From positions 1 through 43,448 of the IMG/VR virus record IMGVR_UViG_3300032893_000110: a DNA stretch of 43,448 bases. One strand, given 5' to 3'. The stretch's first letter is position 1, and each line of letters begins with the position of its first letter. The position numbers and the translations under genes are program-made. Below the pieces are notes generated by a model. It was not told where the DNA came from, made no database searches, and saw only the letters and a program-made list of their open reading frames with translations. Below, one piece after another: positions 30,109 to 39,134 of the stretch. Source of the DNA: a virus.

Positions 30109-30975
30109 TTAATTGTATATTACCTTACCATTTCTGTCAACCTCTATTACATCTGGCTTCCTGACTACTTTGGTTAGGTATCTTGGTCCATCTGAGTAGA
30201 GGAAACATCTGAGATTAGGACGGCATTGATACTTAAAAGGATTATAACTAGCTTTAGTATCAAGCTTGATATTTCCGCTCTTGCCATCGTGGACTTCACC
30301 GCATGTGCACCTTGGAGGGGATCGAAGCCCAACAATTCGTTTACACTCTCTAATGCGATCTCTAATGCTCTGCTCTCTAATTCTGTGCTCATATAGATGA
30401 AGCTTTCCTAATACCTTATCAATGAATAATATATACGCTTTATCCTTTACCCGAACAAGAGGATCTTCATAGGAAGCCACAGTATACCCGTCCAACTGAT
30501 CCAGATAGTCCCGAAGGAAAGTATCCGTAGCCACAAGGCCTGCTTTGACCTTCTGAAAGCCAAGGCTATTAATAGACTTGACATCCACAGTACAACCATC
30601 AATGACACAATCCCGGTGACCCTTGACTCCATCAAGAATGACCTCATCTTGTTCTCCCGTCACTTCATGGCCAGAAGCCTTAGCCATGCTGATTACAAGC
30701 GTTTCAAGGATATGTCCGTAGGTGAATTTGATTTTGGCCCAGGGTTGGTAGGGCTCCGCAAGCTCTGGGGTATGAACAGAGTGCCACAGTTGGCACGGGC
30801 AGCATTCACCCATCTTAGATAGACGGAGACCAGGAACTTCAGTTCTGGGTCCAGTGCTTTCCAAGAGGCGGCGTCCAAGCTCTCCGCTAAAGTCTTGAGA
30901 CAAGTCGTGGTTGAACCATCCGTCTTTACCGACGACATCGTAAATATCCTTAACTAATGTGTATATTGTCTTCAC
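30109..30975 (-). CDS. PD-(D/E)XK nuclease, Cas4/RecB-like
   Basis: The catalytic core is visible as GHRDCVIDGC (Asp) and TVDVKS (D-x-K). The N-terminal motif LRLSKMGECCPCQLWH matches the S..G.C...LW pattern of RecB/Cas4-type exonucleases. Near the C-terminus more cysteines occur (CTCGE, then YQCRPNLRC), so a Cas4-like iron-sulfur cluster is possible. Such nucleases replace the T7 gp6 exonuclease in many podoviruses and would degrade host DNA or process replication ends. GTG 30975 starts 26 bases inside the upstream small gene. Confidence 0.75.
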   Translation of the reverse strand: MKTIYTLVKDIYDVVGKDGWFNHDLSQDFSGELGRRLLESTGPRTEVPGLRLSKMGECCPCQLWHSVHTPELAEPYQPWAKIKFTYGHILETLVISMAKASGHEVTGEQDEVILDGVKGHRDCVIDGCTVDVKSINSLGFQKVKAGLVATDTFLRDYLDQLDGYTVASYEDPLVRVKDKAYILFIDKVLGKLHLYEHRIREQSIRDRIRECKRIVGLRSPPRCTCGEVHDGKSGNIKLDTKASYNPFKYQCRPNLRCFLYSDGPRYLTKVVRKPDVIEVDRNGKVIYN

Positions 30976-31139: not shown

Positions 31140-31460
31140 TTAATGTAGAAGAAGGTACATCATGGCCCAGTTGACTGGGACTAACGCCAACAGCAATAAA
31201 GCGACTCTGTCTACGTTGACGTCAAACAATGATGACTTCTTATCCTTGTCCTTGTCGTCACCAAGCTGTTTCTTCAAGACTTTCATGAAGTCATCGAACT
31301 TGGCTCGACGCTGCTGCTCTTCCAACCAAAGCTCTTCCCATGACTTGGGTTTTTCTTTTCTTGTTCGCTCTGGCTTCTTGTCGTCATCTGGCTTCTTAGC
31401 CATCTGTTTCCCTATTTCTATTAGGGCTAATGCTTCTCCAAATCCAAATCCTTTGGCCAT
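31140..31460 (-). CDS. Charged protein with C-terminal membrane anchor (106 aa)
   Basis: ATG 31460 has a GGGAG site. The protein has an N-terminal helix (GFGEALALIEIGKQMAKK), a long, highly charged helical middle (KSWEELWLEEQQRRAKFDDF) and one C-terminal membrane segment (RVALLLLALVPVNWAMMYLL). It is the first gene after the structured RNA region and may share its transcript. No family recognised. Confidence 0.6.
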   Translation of the reverse strand: MAKGFGFGEALALIEIGKQMAKKPDDDKKPERTRKEKPKSWEELWLEEQQRRAKFDDFMKVLKKQLGDDKDKDKKSSLFDVNVDRVALLLLALVPVNWAMMYLLLH

Positions 31461-31499
31461 GGTTGTCTCCCTGGCTCTGTTAGCTGTCAGCTTCGCTGA

Positions 31500-33050
31500 C
31501 TAATCATCTAATGTGAGGCATCGGCTCTGTCACCGCCTAAGCCCCACTAGTCTTATGGTGGCTGAGGCTGCATCACGATTGAGACTGATTTCATAGCTGT
31601 TACTCCTGCTCGTAGCACACGCTGATCTGGCGTGAATGAGTCTAGAAGAGGACGAACTACACGACACACGCGGTAGCCCCAACCATGTACTTCGGACAGG
31701 AACTAGTCGTCTTACTGCGTCTTACGTTTCCGATAGGTACTCGCATCCTTTCCCACATCGGTTAGTGTAGAACATCGATCAAGCTACCGATGAGTAGCTT
31801 TTGGTGTGCCTAAGAAACCTTCTGAGGTCATTCCTTCCACAGCTCTCTTGCTTGTAAGGCTAGCTGTAGGGTGTTACTCCACCAGTTGTAGCACGGCACC
31901 ACCTCCCCGATTTCGGGGCAACTTGGTCTCGGCGATCAACAGATCGCAAACCTTCATGTCATGGCTTCCGCTTTCGCACATACTGCTCATAGGCGACTAG
32001 TTTACCGAGGGGCTTTATTTCCACCCAACTAGTCTGTGCAGACAATGACATGACGCACTCTTGCTTCCAGCGAACTAGGGCCACCTGGGCTGCCGTCAGA
32101 CATTTAAAGCTTCGGCTCGGTCTTCTTGAGGCCTTCCCTAAGCTACAGCTTGCTTGAACAAGTCCATCAGTCCCGTGGGTTGGATTGAGGGTCCAACTTA
32201 GAGTTAAGCTACCATGGTATTCTCAAGGCCCTATGGTACGGCCTTCCTAAGTCAGCATTTATCTAGTGTCTACTTCTACGGGCTTCGGTCGGACTTGAAC
32301 CGACATAATCCAGGTTGCAACCCGGATGCCTTCCCGGCACAACTGGCATACGTCAGAGATTTCTTCACACCCGATGCACGGGTCGGTCGAGTTACACCAC
32401 CGTCTCTGCTTCCAGCAAGGTACTGTGTCTATTCGGCCACTCAGCGTAACGTCTACATTTCGACACCAAAGCCATTGGCACTCCACCTGGCATGACTGGC
32501 TTAGTACATATCTCTACAGCCTCTACGTTTTCTCTTAAGAGAGTTTCAACGAGGTTAGTATAGCGACAAGACTACTTGAGCTTGTCCCTGCAGGTCACTG
32601 CAGGTAATACCTGTAGGACGACTTCTGTTTGATTTCTGTCCAGGCCGTTATGCTAATGAGACATACGTACCTGTTGCGCTCGGACAAACTGCGAGGGAAC
32701 TAAGCTCTACCCACCGTAGTAGGAATTTCCCTACGCTAGCAGATTACCATCTCTCGATATCAGTTGCTAAGCTGGATTGTCGGTTCAGCGCTTAGTGCTT
32801 ACGCCCTTCCTGAAGGGGCCACTCTCACGGATTGGACACCGGTGTTGAGGAAGCGGTTAGGTTTCATTAAGCTAATGTGGTTAGGAGAGCTGGATGAGTA
32901 GACCAATTACGGCGGAGGTACTTCTCAGGCCAACCAACTCTCCCTCCCGAAACGGCGTTCGGCAGGTTGTCACTCACTTGGGTTGACTACCAACGGTCCC
33001 GTTGCTACGGGGACGGACATTCAACTTATCTAGAAAGAAGCTGCCTACTA
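31500..33050 (-). ncRNA. Candidate giant structured non-coding RNA (about 1.55 kb)
   Basis: No credible gene lies here on either strand, although genes elsewhere in the window mostly overlap. The minus strand, the same sense as all neighbours, folds into many local hairpins. Perfect stems (plus coordinates) include 31781-31787 with 31794-31800, 31837-31844 with 31862-31869, 31905-31909 with 31914-31918, 31932-31937 with 31942-31947, 31995-32002 with 32027-32034, 32179-32184 with 32192-32197, 32225-32230 with 32240-32245, 32565-32570 with 32581-32586, 32719-32723 with 32730-32734, 32767-32772 with 32790-32795, and 32884-32889 with 32938-32943. A GC-GAAA-GC loop and a tRNA-like core are present. 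GOLLD and ROOL are known large phage RNAs of about 800 and 600 bases, often beside tRNAs. Membership cannot be tested here; the exact ends are estimates. Confidence 0.65.
32281..32357 (-). other. tRNA-like domain without acceptor stem
   Basis: Read on the minus strand from 32350: T8 A9, a D stem TGCC/GGCA with a long 14-base loop, base 26 T, an anticodon stem CCGGG/CCTGG with a 6-base loop TTGCAA, a 5-base variable loop ATTAT, and a perfect T arm (GTCGG, TTCAAGT, CCGAC) ending at 32288. The bases at the acceptor positions (TCTGACG and CGAAGCC) do not pair beyond two base pairs. The anticodon would be GCA (Cys). With no acceptor stem, a shortened anticodon loop and no CCA, it is not a normal tRNA. 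It lies in the middle of the structured RNA region. Confidence 0.6.
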
Positions 33051-33248: not shown

Positions 33249-33740
33249 TTAGAAGAGGGGTTTAGAGCCTGATCCTTTGGCTTCCTCTTTCTCGTACTTG
33301 TCGAGGTCCCTCTCGCTTTCGAAGGGGACGAGATTGTCGATGCGGGCACTAACCCAACGAATTGCTTTAGCCGTGCCACCGCCTGGTGTAGCATGTGAAT
33401 AAACCTCTAACTTTAAAGTAGCGTCACTGTCGTTACCGACGTTACCGTCATATCTATTTCCGTCTCGATCAAATACCTCGACGGGATCGAAGGATATGAT
33501 CTTACCAGTGGCAGTCTCCTTAGTGACTGGACGGGAAAAATTGCAATAATATCCATTGTCGTCTTTCTTCAGCTGGTTCTTACAACCCTGTGCTTGTAGA
33601 TCACGGATGATTTCAAGACCTTTAGCATCAGGATGGATCTGAGTGGACCACTTGTTCCACTTATTAGGAGCCTTGGTTCTAAACCAAGTCACCTTTCCAC
33701 TGATGTAAACGTACTCTGTTTTCTTAGCCAATGTTAACAC
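33249..33740 (-). CDS. Single-stranded DNA-binding protein, T7 gp2.5-like
   Basis: The protein binds exposed single strands during replication and recombination. The 163-residue sequence (YVYISGKVTWFRTKAPNKWN, IIRDLQAQGCKNQLKKDDNG, LKLEVYSHATPGGGTAKAIR, WVSARIDNLVPFE) matches the ssDNA-binding proteins of many podoviruses. It ends with a charged stretch and a terminal Phe (DKYEKEEAKGSGSKPLF), as in gp2.5, where the C-terminal Phe contacts the polymerase. The start is GTG 33740 or TTG 33731; both lie inside the end of the small gene upstream. Confidence 0.75.
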   Translation of the reverse strand: MLTLAKKTEYVYISGKVTWFRTKAPNKWNKWSTQIHPDAKGLEIIRDLQAQGCKNQLKKDDNGYYCNFSRPVTKETATGKIISFDPVEVFDRDGNRYDGNVGNDSDATLKLEVYSHATPGGGTAKAIRWVSARIDNLVPFESERDLDKYEKEEAKGSGSKPLF

Positions 33741-35909: not shown

Positions 35910-36677
35910 CTAGTGGTAAATTTTCTCTTGTCTTACCCAAATCCAACTGGCGGGGGAGGGACCGAAGTCCCCCTCCTTTAGCCGTTCAAACATGTCTTCG
36001 CCTCTGGACACAGGGTCTACAACCACAAATGTTCCATCAGCTCGGAGCATCATATTTCCTCCATGGAGGTCGAAATTTACCACATCGGTGTTCCACTTCT
36101 CGCTTAGCTTCAGGAGGAAATCACTTAGTCCCGGAGCAAGCATCTCCGTGAACTTCCTTGCTATCTCATTGCTCTTGATCCTGTGAAGGATGTCAGGCAA
36201 CACCTTCAGGTTATGGTCTCCTGGAGTATTAGATAGCGTTACTTCCAATTTCTCCACCACCGCGACAGCGAAGGTGGCCTTAGCCCCTTTGATTTTCTTG
36301 TAGCTGAAAACCTTCGGAGCGAAATGACCGGCTTCCCCGATCTGCGCCGCCCAGTGGACGTAATTGATCCATCCATCAGGACGCCGGATAACCTTGATGA
36401 CACGGCTCTGACCCTCTTTGCCGAGGACAGTGCTGAATGCACCAACACCAAGCCGCTTGAAACCACGCTTCTCCAATGCCTTGATGAAACCATTGGCATC
36501 TTCGAAAGCTTTCTTCTCGAACTTACGGAACAGCCACTTGCGGTTTCCCTGGGCGAAGTCACGGTTCCATGATCGAATGTACTCTAACTTACCGACCTTA
36601 CCTTTACGGTTGTCAGTCTTTGTCATATTGGCTCTGAGCATGGCGTTAAACTCGCCCATGGCTCTGCCGAAATCCAT
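35910..36677 (-). CDS. Protein kinase-like enzyme
   Basis: Kinase-fold signatures are visible: a glycine-loop type motif GVGAFSTVLGKE, a Lys in SRVIKVIRR, the catalytic loop NFDLHGGNMML (Asp and Asn kept), and VVVDPVS at the metal-binding position. This fits a small Ser/Thr-type or phosphotransferase-like kinase, comparable in role to T7 gp0.7, which modifies host RNA polymerase and other proteins. ATG 36677 (MDFGRAMGEFNAML) is preferred because it follows the upstream stop by 19 bases; an ATG at 36758 would overlap that gene by 62 bases and add 27 residues. Confidence 0.7.
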   Translation of the reverse strand: MDFGRAMGEFNAMLRANMTKTDNRKGKVGKLEYIRSWNRDFAQGNRKWLFRKFEKKAFEDANGFIKALEKRGFKRLGVGAFSTVLGKEGQSRVIKVIRRPDGWINYVHWAAQIGEAGHFAPKVFSYKKIKGAKATFAVAVVEKLEVTLSNTPGDHNLKVLPDILHRIKSNEIARKFTEMLAPGLSDFLLKLSEKWNTDVVNFDLHGGNMMLRADGTFVVVDPVSRGEDMFERLKEGDFGPSPASWIWVRQEKIYH

Positions 36678-36696
36678 CCAACGTTTCTGGATGGTG

Positions 36697-37731
36697 TTAA
36701 TAGTCCCAGTGGGGATCGTCTTCTTCTTCATCCTCTTCAGAGGGTTTTTCCAGATCATCTTCGTGATCCTTCAGCTTCGGGAAAGCAGGACATCCCTGCT
36801 TTTGCAATTCCCTAACGATTGCGTTCAGTCCTGTCGTTGCTGATGTATCCATGTCTTTGAACAGGCTAGCTTTGATGGGCTGTCCAGCAGAAGAGATAGA
36901 GTAAATCTGCACTTCGTTATGAGTCTTGGATGCGGCCATAGACCCAGCACTGCCAAGTCCTTCGCCGATTTCCTTGAACTCATGATTGCGCTGCATATCT
37001 GCAAAGAATAGACCGCGGAACATCGCAGCATGCCCGAGACTGAAAGCTAGGCGATTGATGTCGACAGGGTGGTGACTTTCTTTCACCCTAACAAATTCAA
37101 ACGCAATAATACCGTTCCAAGTTCTTGTAGCCACAGTTGCGATGACTTCTACGGCAAATCCCTTGGCTTCGATCTCATCGATCAAAGCAGCAGTGACCGC
37201 AGCCTTGTTGGTGATCATCTCGGTATTGCAACCACCATTCTCACACATGTTGTAGACGAGAGTAATGGTTTTCTTCTTCCTCTGCGCCGAGGGTTTCGGC
37301 TGGCGCATATTGAGAAGATTGCCGGCGATAGCGCGGGGAACATTAGGAGTTGTCCCCGCGATACCATATTTCACAAGTTTGGGAGAGAGCGGATTTAAGG
37401 CCTTGACGTAGCCTCGTGTCTTTTCAATGAGCGCGCCGCCCTCTGCCCAACCGTGAATTGCCATATCCAATGCTTCATCAAAGGAGTCGCAACCGTTGAA
37501 GCTTTTGCTCCAATCGTTGCGGACGTTGCGGTGTGCCCACCACTTCGAGCCGTTGTCTCCTTTGAATTGTCTTGCAAATACTTCAATGGAAGACCAACTC
37601 GCGATGATCTGCTTATGGTGCCTAGGATCCTTGTTCGGTTCAGCATTCACAAGCATCAGTCGTGTCAAGTCCGGGGCATCCCCGATCTCGACAGTGAGGA
37701 GGGGATTACCCCCTCCGCTGTCTTCGGTCAT
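36697..37731 (-). CDS. Putative vWA-like partner of the AAA+ ATPase (344 aa)
   Basis: The protein follows the AAA+ gene by two bases with an AGAGGAAG site. Patterns such as GCDSFDEALDMAIHGWAEGG and KTITLVYNMCENGG, then HPVDINRLAFSLGHAAMFRG, are known to me from phage proteins encoded next to CobS/MoxR-type ATPases. The second half looks like a von Willebrand A-type fold without a full DxSxS metal site. The C-terminus is very acidic (EKPSEEDEEEDDPHWDY). By analogy with CobS-CobT or MoxR-vWA pairs, it may present substrates to the ATPase. The target is unknown. Confidence 0.6.
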   Translation of the reverse strand: MTEDSGGGNPLLTVEIGDAPDLTRLMLVNAEPNKDPRHHKQIIASWSSIEVFARQFKGDNGSKWWAHRNVRNDWSKSFNGCDSFDEALDMAIHGWAEGGALIEKTRGYVKALNPLSPKLVKYGIAGTTPNVPRAIAGNLLNMRQPKPSAQRKKKTITLVYNMCENGGCNTEMITNKAAVTAALIDEIEAKGFAVEVIATVATRTWNGIIAFEFVRVKESHHPVDINRLAFSLGHAAMFRGLFFADMQRNHEFKEIGEGLGSAGSMAASKTHNEVQIYSISSAGQPIKASLFKDMDTSATTGLNAIVRELQKQGCPAFPKLKDHEDDLEKPSEEDEEEDDPHWDY

Positions 37732-39057: not shown

Positions 39058-39134
39058 TGGTGCAACTCCCTGGATTTGAACCAGGAACCTTTCGATTATC
39101 GATCGAATGCTCTAACCAGTTGAGCTAGAGTTGC
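39058..39134 (-). tRNA. tRNA-Ile (GAT), with C33 and encoded CCA
   Basis: The cloverleaf is complete: acceptor GCAACTC/GAGTTGC, TA, D arm GCTC-AACTGGTTA-GAGC, A, anticodon arm TTCGA-TCGATAA-TCGAA, variable AGGTT, T arm CCTGG-TTCAAAT-CCAGG, discriminator A and CCA. The loop gives anticodon GAT (Ile). Position 33, almost always T, is C. All stems pair perfectly and the 3' CCA is encoded, so the gene looks functional rather than decayed. Confidence 0.9.

Follow-up and report, generated by a model that had tools for sequence, protein, structure and literature searches.

A conserved T-arm module without an acceptor stem in a candidate large structured RNA of uncultured soil phages

On the minus strand of IMG/VR virus record IMGVR_UViG_3300032893_000110, analysed here over its whole length of 43,448 nucleotides (the window), positions 32281–32357 had been described from the letters alone as the body of a tRNA-Cys (GCA) that lacks an acceptor stem, and the question raised by this locus is whether it holds a broken tRNA gene or a tRNA-like element built into a larger RNA. 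We favour, at a probability of about 0.6, that the ‘tRNA body’ is a conserved acceptor-less T-arm module in a large structured non-coding RNA of an uncultured clade of soil phages, in which the T-arm would serve as an elbow joint. The module itself, its covariation, strand, recurrence and clade-wide retention, and the missing acceptor were established by computation. The plus strand of the window carries terminase, adaptor, capsid and tail genes, and the minus strand carries those for a DNA polymerase, a Cas4-like exonuclease and a primase-helicase. Identity of the polymerase to GenBank phages was at most 38%, with marine Roseobacter phages (Zobellviridae, Cobavirinae) at the top, and host assignment by genome scan gave one distant match (a Dependentiae MAG) and one spurious match. 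The candidate RNA lies within a stretch of about 1.7 kb that has no convincing gene, bounded on its 5′ side by a 163-aa gene (33249–33740, minus strand), which is kept in the clade, and on its 3′ side by a 106-aa gene (31140–31460, minus strand) with relatives in loci L001 and L012, both genes being without a Pfam match; the gene of the Cas4-domain exonuclease follows (30109–30975, minus strand; PHROG 1990, E 2.2e-18). The corresponding genes of the Roseobacter phages CRP-4 and CRP-13 are only 0–53 bp apart and the RNA is thus absent there; GenBank relatives have no ORF-poor RNA region.

A large structured phage RNA was taken to be a long ORF-poor region with covarying helices that is conserved across phages, and the candidate region showed each of these features. 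Its conserved span, determined by DNA alignment to L012 and L001, is about 1.4 kb (31498–32877, minus strand), both positions being limits of the alignment and not mapped transcript ends. L012 was alignable at 32877–31971 and 31658–31498 and L001 at 32638–31501, with identities to the window RNA of 62–77% in pieces. Although only 46% of the aligned positions were identical overall, the window, L001 and L012 share an identical 29-nt block (32466–32494, minus strand), the 20 nt ATGTCGGTTCAAGTCCGACC around the T-arm, which form the second longest such block, and 17 nt near the 3′ end that start a hairpin (GTGGGG/CCYCAC; 31542–31558, minus strand). Copies of CACATTAG lie close to either end of the conserved RNA (regions of 32877 and 31510, minus strand), in L012 as in the window. 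No ORF family was found on the RNA strand, only frames of 40–75 codons; a coding reading was rejected, as these frames match patchily along the conserved DNA and are mostly broken, and the gaps are not in threes. DNA searches of the RNA gave no match in GenBank phages and a single copy in its own genome, and Rfam searches at gathering scores and at E ≤ 5 returned nothing credible for it, the matches to sR18 and plastid ycf2 being at chance level. Folding energy was unremarkable (local z about −0.7; 200-nt windows about −0.4 to −2.2 on the RNA strand), and covariation was therefore used as the evidence.

Relatives were gathered by polymerase and exonuclease searches, which yielded 164 loci with 90 non-redundant intervals. 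Within one polymerase clade (support 100), polymerase and exonuclease are separated by a long interval (2.2–5.8 kb) in all 65 phages; outside the clade, such an interval occurred only in L144 and L146, both without T-arms. About 20–30% of the RNAs of the clade contained no T-arm recognisable with the patterns used.

The module at the locus (type 1) opens with a hairpin of 5–7 bp that carries an NTGMAA hexaloop; 1–5 nt of linker, most often 3, separate it from a canonical T-arm. In the window, the T-arm is GTCGG-TTCAAGT-CCGAC (32288–32304, minus strand), a perfect 17-nt element that passed the tRNA T-arm test (GTTCRANYC) and fits 53-GUUYRANYC-61, so it had rightly been called intact. It follows the hairpin CCGGG-TTGCAA-CCTGG (32310–32325, minus strand; hexaloop at 32315–32320), with a possible extension to 7 bp (32308–32327). 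This hairpin stands where the preliminary description had placed an anticodon arm with a loop one base short. The position and the six nucleotides hold, and the test for a 7-nt anticodon loop failed; the loop is not an anticodon loop shortened by decay, since hexaloops (TTGCAA in the window, mostly GTGAAA or GTGCAA in relatives) are conserved as such in most relatives, GTGAAA and GTGCAA also being the top hexaloops on the RNA strand in an unbiased census of the relatives. The assignment to tRNA-Cys falls away: its ‘GCA’ is part of the conserved hexaloop, ARAGORN reported no tRNA at 32281–32357 (the sole call in the window was a tRNA-Ile at 39058–39134), and the Rfam tRNA model RF00005 reached 18.2 bits (E = 1.5) on 32352–32286, below the gathering score of 29. 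Of the claimed D-arm, there remains a possible variable hairpin, ATGCC/GGCAT (32326–32349, minus strand; 32349–32345 pairing with 32330–32326), which is no true D-arm, as the hairpins at this position differ in size and sequence among relatives (CGTGAC/GTCACG in L012, a longer one in L001) and have no conserved GG. An acceptor helix had been judged impossible, and indeed the 7 nt that follow the T-stem reached at best 5/7 pairs against a shuffled mean of 5.15, a value matched by shuffled flanks in 89% of trials; in 25 copies (the window and 24 others), this pairing was likewise no better than chance. ARAGORN searches of the window and the loci detected no tmRNA, and no tag-encoding frame with a tRNA-like domain was found.

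A covariance model of the module (R1) retrieved 30 full-length copies from 29 loci (E ≤ 1e-4), all on the plus strand of the syntenic region and half of them (15) in loci outside the seed, including L102, L050, L091, L042 and L098. In these copies, 94.4% of the cells were paired and two-sided change was seen in 11/11 pairs (T-arm 5/5, type-1 hairpin 6/6), all five T-arm pairs being kept; covariation was 0.874 versus 0.224 in shuffled alignments and at most 0.153 when the structure was slid. Because the R1 alignment is fitted to its own model, the count on an independent MAFFT alignment is the cleaner test: with 14 copies, 93.4% of the cells were paired, 10/11 pairs had changed on both sides, and covariation was 0.812 versus 0.260 in shuffles (0/500) and at most 0.145 when slid. 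RNAalifold, run on ten sequences and told nothing of the module, recovered both the type-1 hairpin and the T-arm and added a second T-loop hairpin upstream of them, with compensatory change in 13/16 pairs. Compensating mutations have preserved this design across dozens of related uncultured phages, which marks it as genuine RNA architecture rather than a broken tRNA gene; the suggestion that a tRNA-like module sits within a larger RNA was borne out, with acceptor-less copies and compensatory changes in 29 related phages. None of the copies compared was a full tRNA, and the intact relative that would have spoken for decay did not appear.

Descent from tRNA genes is a separate matter and is plausible, given that full tRNA-Trp(CCA)-like genes occupy the same polymerase-exonuclease interval outside the clade (L064:8822–8897, called by ARAGORN, and L076 near 7931, seen by eye) and that tRNA arrays of other phages present the same order of T-arm and D-arm across neighbouring genes; the tRNA-Trp(CCA)-like genes of these two loci are a possible source of the T-arms. 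Both observations would also suit a decaying phage tRNA gene, or a tRNA whose acceptor stem is completed by another route. This explanation is very improbable in view of the two-sided compensatory change in every pair, the 25 copies without acceptor pairing above chance and the conservation of a hexaloop in place of an anticodon loop, and decay was rejected on these grounds; moreover, the RNAs of the clade loci contained no ARAGORN tRNA save one odd call in L038.

T-arms are abundant in the syntenic regions and confined to one strand. Under strict criteria, the first 51 intervals (126.5 kb) contained 57 T-arms on the RNA strand, none on the other strand and none in 20 shuffles, and the enlarged set (199 kb) 76 versus 0 on the other strand; 518 kb of other phage DNA held a single one, inside the real tRNA-Ile of L061. 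In the unbiased loop census, which covered all 5-bp hairpins with 7-nt loops, TTCGA was the most frequent loop start on the plus strand (77), and TTCRA loops numbered 95 on the RNA (plus) strand versus 4 on the other. Among these 95, C56 was kept, the closing pair G53–C61 was present in 92 and a pyrimidine at position 60 (Y60) in 81. The full 53-GUUYRANYC-61 consensus on a 5-bp stem was found in 81 hairpins from 51/77 RNAs. The constraint on the T-loop is not uniform: G54 or G55 replaces U in some loops, 24 TGCRA loops have no U55 and retain C56, and GTCGA loops stand at the equivalent place in some relatives. Such variants at equivalent places (TGCRA, GTCGA, TGTAACT), together with the standing of T-loops as a generic module (PMC4810234), would be expected if these were convergent T-loops unrelated to tRNA and selected only as the sort of generic tertiary motif that riboswitches and RNase P contain. 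We regard convergence as distinctly unlikely, because the dominant loop matches the tRNA consensus in full (C56, Y60 and G53–C61 included), and because a tRNA-type D-arm sequence comes after 12 of the T-arms, that of L142 being exactly GCTCAGTGGTAGAGC.

In several relatives, D-arms of this kind are part of a second arrangement (type 2): immediately after a T-arm come a closed hairpin, TG or TA and a tRNA-type D-arm, and the strand behind them pairs back to the sequence preceding the T-arm. The result is a circularly permuted tRNA cloverleaf whose ends lie in the anticodon loop and whose acceptor stem is sealed. The best example, at L142:2780–2920, reads GCTTG, the T-arm GTAGG-TTCGAGT-CCTAC, a capped hairpin of 18 bp in the place of the acceptor, TA, the textbook tRNA D-arm GCTC-AGTGGTA-GAGC, G and CAAGC; those of L056, L114 and L078 are as clear. 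Acceptor hairpins of type 2 have 3–9 bp or more and loops of 3–20 nt, and the permuted cloverleaves contain no CCA and no tag reading frame. A cloverleaf descriptor matched 31 times on the plus strand, never on the minus strand and 0–1 times in shuffles. In a harder control that kept the T-arm and shuffled its flanks, 12.3 matches were expected (maximum 19) versus the 31 found, and at a score of at least 13, 1.8 (maximum 5) versus 11. About a dozen permuted cloverleaves are thus secure, and the low-scoring remainder is not trusted. A search of IMG/VR for the T-arm and D-arm DNA pattern was discarded as a test of the permuted module, as it returned mostly ordinary tandem tRNAs (spacing 50–55).

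The window may have a counterpart upstream of its type-1 module. The T-loop hairpin that RNAalifold recovered there, CGGTGG-TGTAACT-CGACCG (32384–32402, minus strand), shows compensatory changes and stands at a site where relatives have canonical T-arms, e.g., GCTGG-TTCGATC-CCAGC in L008. In the minimum-energy fold, it adjoins a closed hairpin at the place of the acceptor stem, ACCCG-TGCAT-CGGGT (32369–32383, minus strand), which has equivalents in L012 (GCCCCGT-GGG-ACGGGGT) and L001 (CCCCT...AGGGG). The same fold gives a possible helix, GCAGAGA (32409–32403) with TCTCTG (32359–32354), that encloses both hairpins (32354–32409, minus strand) in the window only and was not reproduced in the folds of L001 and L012. 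Judging by the fold of the window, the hairpin pair at 32402–32369 and its enclosing helix may be a degenerate (worn) permuted cloverleaf.

What the T-arms do in such an RNA is approached here through their conserved positions. An elbow needs C56 and the G53–C61 pair (PMC4810234), and because both are kept even where U55 is G, we infer that the T-loop adopts its tRNA fold and docks elsewhere in the same RNA, either on a partner resembling G18–G19 or on a second T-loop. A docked T-arm would form a tertiary ‘elbow’ joint that organises the large RNA. If the T-arm is an elbow joint within a large RNA, this would explain why acceptor stems are missing or else capped and of any length, and the permuted cloverleaves, with their capped acceptor and an anticodon stem opening into the RNA, would have kept the elbow and discarded charging. 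As a whole, the RNA would most likely have a structural or scaffold role and be expressed together with the genes for replication. Among the roles that had been proposed for the locus, a structural T-loop joint is the best-supported one.

Recruitment of host factors is the other role, and would amount to elbow mimicry: T-arms would bind host factors that read the elbow or the T-arm, with the RNA being modified, sequestering them or acting as a decoy. Candidates are the pseudouridine-55 synthase TruB, the U54 methyltransferase TrmA, RNase P and tRNA-cutting defence enzymes. The minimal substrate of TruB is a 17-nt T-arm, and TrmA requires just a 5-bp stem and a 7-nt loop (PMC7912444). Since TruB accepts a T-arm of this consensus and the 81 hairpins noted above have, by their sequence, the 5-bp stem and GUUYRANYC loop, host TruB and TrmA would probably modify the candidate T-loops if these are accessible. 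Y60 in 81/95 loops goes beyond the need of a bare T-loop fold, and known viral tRNA mimics that copy the elbow provide a precedent (PMC4810234). We nevertheless rate mimicry as rather unlikely to be what the T-arms are for: docking accounts better than TruB recognition for the 24 TGCRA loops that have C56 without U55 and for the GTCGA loops of relatives, and absent or capped acceptor stems remove EF-Tu, synthetases and normal cleavage by RNase P. An elbow joint and elbow mimicry are compatible with each other. In a broader proposal, to which we give somewhat less than an even chance, the RNAs form a new giant phage RNA class built of repeated tRNA-elbow modules, including sealed permuted cloverleaves, which could be a multi-elbow scaffold or cage, or a sponge for elbow-reading enzymes in the course of infection.

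Compared with known systems, the candidate RNA with its proposed elbow joints combines the kinds ‘large phage RNA’ and ‘viral elbow mimic’ in a new way. GOLLD and ROOL are likewise large non-coding phage RNAs, and GOLLD is often found near tRNAs and sometimes has tRNAs in its linker (PMC12286853). The candidate RNA is longer and of other sequence than both, it contains tRNA parts as structural pieces, permuted or lacking the acceptor, and not as whole tRNAs in a linker, and the Rfam covariance models of GOLLD, ROOL and OLE had no match in the window or eight relatives. Viral tRNA-like structures of the TYMV type also copy the tRNA elbow in a viral RNA (PMC4810234); these end in a chargeable acceptor, whereas in the candidate RNA the acceptor is missing or capped, the modules are internal and repeated, and the virus is a DNA phage. 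T-loops serve as tertiary joints in RNase P, the T-box and the L1 stalk of 23S rRNA, as proposed here, and in the candidate RNA, too, pairs of T-loops are located near each other; the T-loops of those RNAs are degenerate, whereas the candidate RNA keeps the T-arm consensus of tRNA in full. In permuted (two-piece) tmRNA and permuted tRNA genes, the chain runs from the T-arm through the 3′ and then the 5′ strand of the acceptor to the D-arm. Type 2 shares this chain order and differs in having no tag frame, no CCA and an acceptor closed by a loop. The permuted, sealed cloverleaves are the most unusual part; we know of no described natural parallel to them, and none was found in the literature searched, which was covered in part. 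Within that same partial coverage no such RNA was found described, and no Rfam family fits. If read correctly, a large viral RNA has taken up parts of tRNA as structural units and dispensed with charging, which offers a testable case of elbow mimicry or of elbow-based RNA architecture. Permuted capped cloverleaves would confuse tRNA annotation and are missed by standard tools.

Further observations concern sequences beside the module and elsewhere in the window. In L005–L009, L088, L092 and L095, copies of GTAGTAG stand on both sides of the type-1 module (ACGTAGTAGAT, GTAATGTAGTAGGAT), and a strongly conserved GATAAAAGCGAGA follows the GTAGTAG motifs. The tRNA-Ile(GAT) of the window (39058–39134, minus strand) is complete (68.9 bits in Rfam), and L013, L134 and L061 likewise carry a tRNA-Ile(GAT). 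The minus-strand stretch at 35910–36758 has a weak PHROG match to a T7-like protein kinase, an inhibitor of host transcription.
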